Below are positions 4,220 through 8,132 of a DNA stretch of 34,874 nt, in pieces. The stretch comes from Bolinopsis microptera (taxonomy: Eukaryota; Ctenophora; Tentaculata; Lobata; Bolinopsidae). The notes below the pieces were generated by a model. It made no database searches. It saw only the letters and a list, made by a program, of their open reading frames with translations, and was not told the origin of the DNA. The stretch spans positions 1-34,874 of the forward strand of contig NW_026971829.1 of the NCBI RefSeq assembly GCF_026151205.1. The letters run 5' to 3'. The position numbers and the translations under genes were made by a program. Each line of letters begins with the position of its first letter. The first letter of the stretch is position 1.

Positions 4220-6690
4220 AAGTCGAAATATAAACTGATATCTTCATTAATAAGGAGGAAGTTTCAACGATTTCGAAATTTTTCCTTTAAAAACATTTCC
4301 TTGTGTTTAGGGAAGCATATCGGTCGATCACTGACTGAATATGCCACTTAATACTCATTCAAGTTGGCATTAAATTCATATATAATGACATTAAACTGTC
4401 GTGGCAAAGCAGAATTTGTTGGAAATCACGAATGAGCAAAATTCTCACCTTTCGCACGTGCAAACTTTGAGCGGACGTTGCGTGCGCATCCAATATTGAA
4501 TCGCCGTAAATTTTTGCATGTAATTGTTTTATATATAGCTTGATAAGCATGCAAAGTTTCAAAGTATTTCAAGAAGAACTGTAATCACAACGGCACTCTA
4601 AAGTTGACAGAAAATGACGAAAACAGCAATTTTAAGTGATTTTAGCGATTTTCTATCAATTTGGGCGTGTTCCCACGTGTGCAACTTTTCGATTTTCAAC
4701 TTTAAAACTAGCCTAATGCACAATTTATACCTATAAAAAGCAGAACTGAGCTCCACAACTCAAGGCATGGCCCAACACCAGAGAATACTAAATCGCAAAA
4801 TTGACGTTTTTATAAAATAATTCTTCAAAAAAGCACAAACTTCAATAACGAATATCTTTATGAAGGAGCAAGCTAGAAAAACTTTCCGATAGATTTTCAG
4901 AATGCTTGAACAATTATCTAAGATGAAAATTACTCAGATTTTGAATAAAATTACTCCTTAATGGTTTAAAATTAATTTTAAAAGTTATTACTTTGTCAAA
5001 AATCAAGTTTTAAAAACGGTTAACTTGATGACGTCATCAAGGGGTGTTTATGACGTCAAATAATTTTTTTATACAATGTAAACTAAAGTATAAACAATTA
5101 TTTGCAAGACCTGTGGTCGGGAATGGCTGTATCTTTTATACTTTTGAATCTATGGAACTTAAATACAGGCTACAATTGACTGGCAAAGCGTCTATCCCTG
5201 AATATCACAGTGCTGGCAAGCACGACCGGTGCATTTATTGTGGGTATACTATTTTCCTCCTTTACTATTATACCCCCTTTACTATTATACCCCCTTTGGT
5301 ACACGTTACAAGCCTCTTTCGTGCACGCGAAGCGTGCACTCCGGCCGGAGGCGGCGGCCGAAGGCCGCCGCCTCCGGCATTAAGACTCATCGGAAGTCGT
5401 TCAGCAGATTTATTTTTAGTTCAAAACATTCTAATTTGATGTCAAAGATGACAGGAATAAAAAATAGTTATGTTGAGATTTTTAAGAAATTTGCATGAAA
5501 TACTCGCCAGCACTGTTATACGAAATTCGGTAAAAAACCCAAAATCGCTATATTCAGGTGCCTTAAAAACCATGTTAAAATCGAGTTAGAGATCTGAAAT
5601 TTTTCAGGGCGTCTAGACGTTGACCAAATCGACTGCAAAAAAAGTTTCAGGTTTCAGGAACATCGGGAAGTGGGTTTTCTAGAACCCCTGTTTTACGACA
5701 GATTGTCGTGATATCTATATACATACATATATATATTCAGGGATAGACGCTTTGCCAGTCAATTGTAGCCTGTATTTAATTGTCCATAGATTCAAAAGTA
5801 TAAAAGATACAGCCATTTCCGACCACAGGTCATGAAAATAATTGTTTACACTTTAGTTTACATTGTATAAACAAATTATTTGACGTCATGAACACCCCTT
5901 GATGACGTCATCAAGTTAACCATTTTTAAAACTTGATTTTTGACAAAGTAATAACTTTTAAAAATGATTTTACACCATTAAAAAGTAATTGTATTCAAAA
6001 TCTGAGGAAATTTTTACCTTAGATAATTGTTCAAGCATTCTGAAAATCTACCGGAAAGTTTTTCTAGCTTGCTCCTTCATAAAGATATTCGTCATTGAAG
6101 TTTGTGCTTTTTTGAAGAATTATTTTATAAAAACGTCAATTTTGCGATTTAGTATTCTCTGGTGTTGGGCCATGCCTTAGGTTGTGGAGCTCAGTTCTGC
6201 TTCCTATAGGTATAAATTGTGTATTAGGCTAGTTTTAAAGTTAAAAATCGAAAAGTTGCACACGTGAGGACACGCCCAAATTGATAGAAAATTACTGAAA
6301 TCACTGAAAATTGCTGTTTTTGTCATTTTCTGTCAACTTTAGAGTGCCGTTGTGATTACAGTTCTTCTTGAAATACTTTGAAATTTTGCATGCTTATCAA
6401 ACTATATATAAAACAATTACATGCAAAAATTTACGGCGATTCAATATTGGATGCGCACGCAACGTCCGCTCAAAGTTTGCACGTGCGAAAGGTGAGAATT
6501 TTGCTCATTCGTGATTTCCAACAAATTCTGCTTTGCCACGACAGAACTTGAATGAGTATTAAGTGGCATATTCAGTCAGTGATCGACCGATATGCTTACC
6601 TAAACACAAGGAAATGTTTTTAAAGGAAAAATTTCGAAACTGTTGAAACTTCCTCCTTATTAATGAAGATATCAGTTTATATTTCGACTT
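4220..6690. mobile_element. Element C: giant palindrome with A3 at its centre
   Basis: The left arm (4220-5204) and right arm (about 5734-6690) are near-perfect reverse complements of almost 1 kb. The right arm lacks about 33 bp that the left arm keeps near 4380. The arms meet at TATCCCTGAATA / TATTCAGGGATA, and element A3 sits between them. Each arm carries two TGACGTCA palindromes (5029, 5051; mirrored at 5881, 5903). No coding capacity beyond short chance frames. The single arm at 8133-9117 is a third copy. Confidence 0.88.
5205..5709 (+). mobile_element. Element A, copy 3
   Basis: The A copy at the centre of palindrome C. It has two 17-bp minisatellite units rather than three, and lacks about 14 bp between two GGCA direct repeats just after the second hairpin. 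The twin GAA hairpins (5321-5339 and 5344-5378) and the terminal hairpin (5695-5709) are intact. A TA-rich tail (5710-5733) follows. Confidence 0.75.
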
Positions 6691-6726: not shown

Positions 6727-7371
6727 ATATTTGACCAAAACCCATAATCATGGGTAGAGTGGACCGCTGCCATGGTCTCTCTTTCCCAAACAAAAGGAAA
6801 TGATATTAATTTGATTGACCGTTCTCAAATGCAAAATGATACCGAGAATGAAATCGGTCGCTCGCTTTTCCCATTCATTTACAATTGTAATAGATTAAGA
6901 AGAACTACCCAAAGGCAGCTGTACTCGGCAATAAAGATTCAATAAACTTCAGCTAATTCAATAAGTAATAACTACCACCCTTACCCCGAAATACTAGGTA
7001 TCGACCCGAACGCAACCCAAAGAGATTTTTACAGCATCTGATTGATGTACCTAATCAATCGAAACTTATTACAATTCGTAAGCCGTGAATGAATGAAAAC
7101 CTAGTATTTCGGGGTAAGGGTGGTAGTTATTACTTATTGAATTAGCTGAAGTTTATTGAAACTTTATTGCCGAGTACAGCTGCCTTCGGGTAGTTCTTTT
7201 TAATGTATTACAATTGTAAATGAATGGGAAAAGCGAGCGACCGATTTCATTCTCGGTATCATTTTGCATTTGAGAACGGTCAATCAAATTAATATCATTT
7301 CCTTTTGTTTGGGAAAGAGAGACCATGGCAGCGGTCCACTCTACCCATGATTATGGGTTTTGGTCAAATAT
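6727..7371 (-). mobile_element. Element B, copy 3 (rearranged core)
   Basis: Long-TIR fold-back element with ATATTTGACC ends. It is longer than the other copies (645 bp against about 515). The core runs in the orientation of B4 and is then partly repeated in inverted form, with the turn near 7101. It is a composite or an unequal fold-back product. Confidence 0.85.
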
Positions 7372-7410
7372 GTATATATATATATAAATAAAGTGTAATT
7401 CCCTCATTAT

Positions 7411-7578
7411 TAAGGCCTTGGTGGCCCAGTGGCGCGGCGTTGGGCCAGTAATCGCAAGGTTGCTGGATCAATACCCGCCATCGGCAAAACCAACCTTGAT
7501 GATTTGAGCCATACTGATGAGTCCTAATAGGACGAAACACTGTGTCTATGGATATATATATATATATATGTATATATC
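7411..7578 (+). mobile_element. tRNA-derived SINE ending in a hammerhead ribozyme
   Basis: The head looks like a tRNA gene: an A-box-like TGGCCCAGTGGC at 7422-7433 and a B-box-like GGATCAATACC at 7465-7475, about 32 bp apart, as expected for an internal RNA polymerase III promoter. A short body (7480-7508) leads into a hammerhead ribozyme (7509-7551) and then a TA-repeat tail. The tail faces the TA tail of A4, so the two elements are joined tail to tail. No coding sequence. tRNA-like SINEs that carry hammerheads are known in some invertebrates (Schistosoma Sm-alpha). I cannot say whether this family is described. Confidence 0.8.
7509..7551 (+). ncRNA. Hammerhead ribozyme, type I
   Basis: All core elements are present in order. 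Stem I CCATA (7509-7513) pairs with TATGG (7547-7551). The core CTGATGA is at 7514-7520. Stem II is GTCC/GGAC with a TAATA loop (7521-7533). GAA follows at 7534-7536. Stem III is ACA/TGT with a CTG loop (7537-7545). The cleavage-site C at 7546 completes GTC. Predicted self-cleavage lies between 7546 and 7547. The very short stem III is typical of hammerheads in Penelope-like elements and retrozymes, which often act as dimers. Confidence 0.93.
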
Positions 7579-8132
7579 ACGACAATCTATCGTAAAACAG
7601 GGGTTCTAGAAAACCCATTTCCCGATGCTCCTGAAACCTGAAACTTTTTTTGCAGTCGATTTGGTCAACGTCTAGACGCCCTGAAAAATTTCAGATCTCT
7701 AACTCAATTTTAACATGGTTTTTAAGGCACCTGAATATGGCGATTTTGGGTTTTTTACCGAATTTCGTATAACAGTGCTGGCGAGTATTTTATGCAAATT
7801 TCTTAAAAATCTCAACATAACTTTTTTTTATTCCTGTCATCTTTGACATCAAATTAGAATGTTTTGAACTAAAAATAAATCTGCTGAACGACTTCCGATG
7901 AGTCTTAATGCCTGAAAAACTCCTGCCGGAGGCGGCGGCCTTCGGCCGCCGCCTCCGGCCGGAGTGCACGCTTCGCGTGCACGAAAGAGGCTTGTAACGT
8001 GTACCAAAGGGGGTATAATAGTAAAGGGGGTATAATAGTAAAGGGGGTATAATAGTAAAGGGGGTATAATAGTAAAGGGGGTACATAGTATACCCACAAT
8101 AAATGCACCGGTCGTGCTTGCCAGCACTGTGA
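7579..8132 (-). mobile_element. Element A, copy 4 (minus)
   Basis: Reverse-oriented A element: terminal hairpin at 7579-7593, sub-terminal repeat GCCAGCACTG/CAGTGCTGGC, four 17-bp minisatellite units, and both GAA hairpins intact (7925-7959 and 7964-7982). Its 5' end joins directly to a C arm at 8133, in the same arrangement as A3 and the right C arm. Confidence 0.75.

Follow-up and report, generated by a model that had tools for sequence, protein, structure and literature searches.

A probable 5'-truncated non-LTR retrozyme copy with a tRNA-like head and a hammerhead ribozyme in the ctenophore Bolinopsis microptera

The window analyzed here is the whole of contig C70 (34,874 bases) of the ctenophore Bolinopsis microptera, whose genome was searched over 264.65 Mb in 232 contigs. 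A ligand-domain stretch of a glutamate receptor from this genome has ML032222a iGluR, a Mnemiopsis protein, as its best match in the PDB, which points to a ctenophore host; a whole glutamate receptor from another locus did not distinguish between phyla in such a search. The feature under study consists of a degenerate tRNA-like head followed by a type I hammerhead ribozyme, with TA-rich DNA on both sides (Table 1). An Rfam search of the 34,874-base window identified the hammerhead with 35.9 bits against a gathering score of 34 (E 1.4e-5), and this was the only family above its gathering score. The covariance model thus agrees with the original prediction, made from the letters of positions 7411 to 7578, that a type I hammerhead is located here, and the cut predicted from the sequence, after the GTC that ends at 7546, falls at the same position as had been proposed.

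The extent of the element turned out to be different. It had been described as a complete, short SINE unit of 168 bp, but the unit is 277 bp long and arranged in tandem elsewhere in the genome; what the window holds is a copy truncated on its 5' side to the last 161 bp. Since the letters from 7394 onward correspond to those that close the preceding unit in the arrays, the element starts at 7394 and not at 7411. Its 3' end lies at 7553/7554, and positions 7555 to 7578 form a TA repeat resembling the TA on the 5' side. This repeat had been taken for a tail of the element, a view not supported by the TA-rich DNA on both sides and by the 15-bp duplications of TA-rich DNA found at two of five loci. 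As regards the family, we conclude with good confidence that the window holds a 5'-truncated retrozyme copy with a single ribozyme, belonging to a non-autonomous, non-LTR family whose unit is 277 nt long. As it harbors a single ribozyme, no unit-length RNA could be released from the window copy alone.

Table 1. Features of the probable retrozyme copy and its flanks in the window
Feature	Position	Strand	Basis
TA-rich DNA 5' of the copy, within a recurrent repeat	7369-7393	+	Same repeat flanks L007
Terminal unit of a probable non-LTR retrozyme with 277-bp units, truncated at the 5' end (161 of 277 bp kept)	7394-7554	+	Alignment with array units of L008, L002 and L004-L007
3' end of the body of the preceding unit	7394-7414	+	Identical letters 5' of the head in internal array units
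Degenerate tRNA-like head	7415-7486	+	A box at 7422-7433 and B box at 7465-7475; no ARAGORN call
Type I hammerhead ribozyme, predicted cut 7546/7547	7507-7553	+	RF00163, 35.9 bits; aligned with 54 other copies
TATGGATA, copied beyond the predicted cut, apparent reverse transcription start	7547-7554	+	43 of 49 insertions stop here, by eye
TA-rich DNA, probably target and not element tail	7555-7578	+	TA-rich on the 5' side too; duplications at L025 and L047

The head carries an A box (TGGCCCAGTGGC at 7422) with one mismatch to TRGCNNAGYNGG and a B box (GATCAATAC at about 7465/7466) matching GWTCRANNC exactly, the two being at tRNA spacing. This is the only such pair on either strand of the window, and it does lie with the hammerhead in one mobile unit, as had been claimed; a pair was present in 3 of 60 dinucleotide shuffles. 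ARAGORN called no tRNA gene in the window. The Rfam tRNA model could be aligned to a sister unit over its full length (1-71), but scored 17.4 bits against a cut-off of 29 (E 0.23 for 161 nt searched with 4,227 families), and much of the acceptor stem is mispaired. Heads of an old subfamily gave no match to this model at E up to 10 when 15 kb were searched. Judged from its sequence, the head appears to be tRNA-like, whereas an intact tRNA is not supported. When the sister unit is aligned to the model, AGU stands in the anticodon loop, which would make the head threonine-like.

Searching the genome with the 168-bp query gave at least 43 matches (best 40 of 105 candidates scored), several of them in tandem, and, as anticipated, other copies share both the tRNA-like head and the ribozyme. 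The hammerhead model gave at least 69 matches genome-wide, 67 of them above the cut-off (best 74 of 35,411 candidates scored). A 40-nt ribozyme string had 59 exact occurrences in the 264.65 Mb compared to none for the control with reversed letters, which rules out a chance hammerhead. Separately, a hammerhead-pattern match inside an open frame of L063 was taken as chance.

To describe the conservation of the ribozyme, we aligned 55 ribozymes of our own choice, leaving out most identical internal array units and L052. CTGATGA was unchanged in all 55, the G of GAAA was lost in one row (L049) and the following C in L036, and GTC was lost in one unit of L031 and one unit of L042. No covariation was detected in the 25 distinct rows, where none of the 12 pairs changed on both sides. 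Between the old-subfamily copy L042 and a young unit of L008, the ribozyme is nearly identical, whereas the body is 93% alike; compared with several young heads, that of L042 shows about 80% similarity. This pattern fits selection acting on the ribozyme in source copies, without proving it.

Stem III of the ribozyme is weak (A-U, C-G and A-U, closed by a three-base loop). The original prediction had suggested from its three base pairs that the ribozyme acts as a dimer or in tandem, and a stem of this weakness fits such a mode of action. Between two molecules, ACACUGUGU could form pairs on either side of a U-U mismatch, an arrangement that would be compatible with dimer action. Isolated 54-nt ribozymes (n = 4) gave z values of -0.98, 0.43, -1.21 and -0.99 against shuffled sequences, none being clearly more stable; for the window copy, 34 of 200 shuffles were at least equally stable, and the minimum-energy fold is a hairpin, not a hammerhead. 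The 277-nt unit was more stable than all 200 shuffles (z -2.89).

Tandem arrays of the unit reach about 6.5 units. The L008 array comprises 4.5 copies of 277 bp with a 99% match, L030 5.4 copies with a period of 278, and L034 2.6 copies with a period of 277, while seven ribozymes lie across about 1.8 kb in the C12 array. No LTRs were noticed around the arrays examined, and the GC content of one full unit is 0.451. The L030 array mixes two unit types in the order A A B B A, for which a single circle is insufficient; this order needs ligation of monomers across types, template switching or a mixed parent. Sense TTTT is absent from the L008 array (390-1643), and polymerase III transcripts could therefore run through several units. 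In two other arrays (L010 300-2100 and L052 300-1640), insertions and deletions of single bases are frequent within the units; they seem to reflect errors of assembly or of long reads and not divergence. In a further array, a DNA transposon with inverted ends TAGTACAGACAGATCC has, by eye, apparently inserted within a hammerhead (L019 from about 1007, L002 up to about 1073), with an apparent 3-bp duplication.

We then counted insertions by eye from the printed sequence and the alignment, over the clusters of the 168-bp, hammerhead, head and body searches. Seven pairs of loci were merged: L019 with L002 (one array split by the transposon), L015 with L010 (same array) and, for their shared flanks, L021 with L020, L044 with L012, L039 with L038, L042 with L040, and L036 with L035. 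Two adjoining copies in L006 were counted separately, an inverted fragment in L033 was added, and L055 is the same place as L009. This yielded 49 distinct insertions with different flanks, found on each of C1 to C13 and on C70. As many as 43 end at TGG[A/G]T(A), about 7 to 8 nt beyond the predicted cut, the end being uncertain by at least one base where target letters match the unit. The remaining six end elsewhere, either 3 to 4 nt beyond the cut (L045 and L050) or inside the unit (L051 to L054). Because a ribozyme search favors complete 3' ends, loci from the head and body searches were counted separately, and the fixed 3' end was present in 15 of 17 distinct head-search loci (23 of 23 candidates scored) and in 17 of 20 distinct body-search loci (best 40 of 56 candidates scored). 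With so many insertions ending beyond the cut, the ribozyme, which had been proposed to form the 3' end of the RNA, is not what defines where integrated copies stop on the 3' side. The 5' ends are spread all round the unit. Five insertions start flush with the common 3' end point; L004, L005, L014 and L029 are whole units, and L051 has a degraded 3' end.

TA-rich DNA follows 42 of the 43 regular 3' ends, L016 being without TA on that side, and the TA stretch is short or interrupted at L011, L014, L018 and L020. A repeat search at five loci revealed 15-bp target duplications with identical bases at L025 and L047 and a fuzzy repeat at L043, but none at L028 and L034, despite apparent ones by eye. 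By eye, a repeat with a TA-rich stretch adjoining CACGACAATCTRTYGTAAAACAGGGG is a frequent landing site of the retrozyme, seen at 7200-7800 of the window and at L003, L007, L010, L023, L028, L043, L047 and L060, the last of which resembles an unoccupied paralogous landing site.

The DNA copies continue across the predicted cut, which means that a linear RNA with its 3' end at GTC was not what served as template. The simplest reading of these junctions is a template RNA in circular or uncut multimeric form, on which reverse transcription would begin shortly 3' of the ribozyme, and a circle closed at the cut would also explain the whole-unit inserts and the arrays. Cervera and de la Pena described the anatomy of retrozymes and proposed circular templates and Penelope-like helpers, presenting the enzyme and the priming step as hypotheses (PMC7229834), and Frangieh and colleagues reported for a Penelope-like element (PLE) of Anolis that reverse transcription begins at an internal site 3' of the hammerhead and that the element cuts DNA rich in AT (PMC11167929). 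The cycle we propose takes the units, the arrays, the fixed 3' end, the mostly TA-rich sites, some duplications and the conserved core from the sequence; the polymerase, cleavage, circularization and enzyme are those that we infer. RNA polymerase III would probably transcribe arrays of at least two units, using the A and B boxes inside the tRNA-like head. Cleavage after GTC by each hammerhead, perhaps acting as a dimer, would then release RNAs of 277 nt, which a host tRNA ligase may close into circles. A borrowed reverse transcriptase (RT), most plausibly that of a PLE, would open TA-rich DNA, start at UGGAUA, about 7 to 8 nt past the healed cut, and then go round the circle. The result would be arrays joined head to tail, with a constant 3' end and 5' ends that vary. 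We tentatively suggest that the copies record this kind of circular-RNA retrotransposition, in which an RT primed at TA-rich DNA enters at the healed junction, nearly always 7 to 8 nt past the cut, and rolls round a circle made by polymerase III.

A different step could be envisaged for the same family, with an uncleaved linear multimeric transcript as the RT template in place of a circle. Such a template accounts for the fixed 3' end beyond the cut and for the mixed array L030, and it would be in agreement with the Anolis PLE, whose ribozyme mutants still insert in vitro, ribozyme cleavage not being needed (PMC11167929). However, a circle would be expected to yield inserts of whole units that begin flush with the start point (L004, L005, L014 and L029), as well as the near-identical units of L008 (99%), which a homogeneous parent array could also give; with a linear multimer, the conserved ribozyme would be left without a role. 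We regard copying from a linear multimer as rather unlikely.

The locus might instead represent a monomeric tRNA-derived SINE that has captured a ribozyme and is transcribed by polymerase III, given its RNA 3' end by the hammerhead and mobilized by a LINE. The apparent internal A and B boxes that characterize such SINEs are present in the window at tRNA spacing, the A box with one mismatch; the tRNA model aligned end to end (17.4 bits, below the cut-off of 29), and truncated copies are dispersed, two of them with clear duplications. Unlike a tRNA-derived SINE, the ctenophore unit is not a monomer that starts at its tRNA head and ends in its own tail: units are joined head to tail with no boundary at the head, 5' ends occur all round the unit, copies continue beyond the cut, and a head-only SINE was found at none of the 17 distinct head-search loci (L051 has a degraded ribozyme). 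A SINE with its own tail was rejected, the head sitting inside the tandem unit and the TA reading as target DNA, and we consider the SINE explanation as a whole improbable. Even less credible is a satellite DNA spread by unequal crossing-over and segmental duplication. The 277-bp tandem units would fit it, and five flank-sharing pairs (L020/L021, L012/L044, L038/L039, L040/L042 and L035/L036) look like plain duplications, but it is confronted with 49 short insertions with different flanks on C1 to C13 and C70, 43 of them with the fixed 3' end. These dispersed junctions rule out an origin as satellite only.

Turning to the candidate helper of the proposed circular-RNA cycle, a short Penelope-like RT fragment is located directly 5' of a 5'-truncated retrozyme copy (L009 1238-1477), with TA-rich DNA between them. 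This fragment has at least 148 matches in the genome, including itself (best 150 of 316 candidates scored), many of which sit in open frames above 900 aa. These RT genes are presumably Penelope-like, judged in part by their RT motifs. In a Pfam search of three RT loci, GIY-YIG was found in L062 (28.6 bits versus a cut-off of 22.6), and GIY-YIG in L064 (20.7 bits) and RVT_1 in L061 remained below the cut-off. None of six fetched Penelope-like loci gave an Rfam hammerhead at E up to 10, a pattern search of one locus for the retrozyme end gave no match, and no 3' end common to the retrozyme was seen by eye in the flanks of L060, L061, L062 and L064. Penelope-like RT genes also occur in tandem arrays (C5:23559460-23569659 and C6:13646794-13657002, with spacings of about 3350 and 3353 bp), and seven of the eight units listed there have open frames of 959 aa.

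The element in L062 has a 931-aa frame with an N-terminal GIY-YIG domain and a Twister-P5-like motif in its repeated flank (2181-2225 and 5499-5543, minus strand). The same motif is present in L076 to L083 and sits where other PLEs are reported to carry a hammerhead. It scored 26.8 to 33.0 bits in all nine loci scanned, out of 40 scored copies, in every case below the cut-off of 37.6. RF02684 gave no genome-wide match at E 0.001 among the best 80 of 5,890 candidates scored, and local searches give the motif below the cut-off. At one terminal pair, L062 has U-A where the remaining eight loci have C-G, probably through a single event. Most of these nine copies lose similarity about 50 nt 3' of the motif, at a similar place, which resembles the layout of the Anolis PLE, where a ribozyme is followed by an RT start.

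With respect to known systems, the family is closest in organization to the metazoan non-LTR retrozymes of Acropora, Mytilus and Ambystoma as described in PMC7229834. Like these, it has a type I hammerhead in short tandem repeats and dispersed short arrays, its unit of 277 to 278 bp is within their range of about 150 to 450 bp in dimers to multimers, and its GC content (0.451, below 50%) and stable unit fold are in line with theirs. The window copy itself, as a truncated monomer, differs from their dimers to multimers. Target duplications above 4 bp are likewise shared (15 bp at two loci), and are illegible at the window copy. Metazoan non-LTR retrozymes are further characterized by the lack of an LTR, a primer-binding site and a polypurine tract and by abundant unit-length circular RNA, and the ctenophore family is known here from DNA. 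What sets the ctenophore unit apart is its tRNA-like head with A and B boxes, the terms "polymerase III" and "SINE" being absent from the text of PMC7229834. PLEs with hammerheads also resemble it in having a ribozyme 5' of an internal RT start, AT-rich targets and tandem copies, according to PMC11167929, but they encode an RT and an endonuclease, for which a 277-bp unit is far too short.

The combination of a tRNA-related sequence with a hammerhead is already known, because Sm-alpha of Schistosoma is described as a tRNA-Gln-related, SINE-like element with a hammerhead (PMC2770079 and PMC4918200). The original prediction had placed the novelty in the host and the family, and we concur. Sm-alpha and Sj-alpha likewise have a tRNA-related sequence and a type I hammerhead in each repeat, a likeness drawn from their description; the relation of Sm-alpha is to tRNA-Gln, compared to an AGU anticodon loop in the ctenophore unit, and the flatworm copy number is estimated above 10,000, compared to 49 insertions here. 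A limited literature search found no report of a ctenophore hammerhead repeat with a tRNA-like head; both for hammerheads in ctenophores and for retrozymes linked with polymerase III and a hammerhead it gave only PMC10886601, which, in the part consulted, mentions retrozymes in passing.

The ctenophore family would thus add a second tRNA-related hammerhead repeat beside that of the schistosomes, in animals that belong to the sister group of other animals (PMC10232365). According to a published proposal, the spread of retrozymes involves circular RNA and a borrowed RT that copies it (PMC7229834). Being small, with 49 insertions that can be read and a 3' junction that is fixed, the present family offers a direct test of the form of the template and of the RT start site. 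If the proposed cycle is true, SINE-type expression by polymerase III, ribozyme circularization and a PLE-type internal RT start would be combined in one 277-nt ctenophore parasite.
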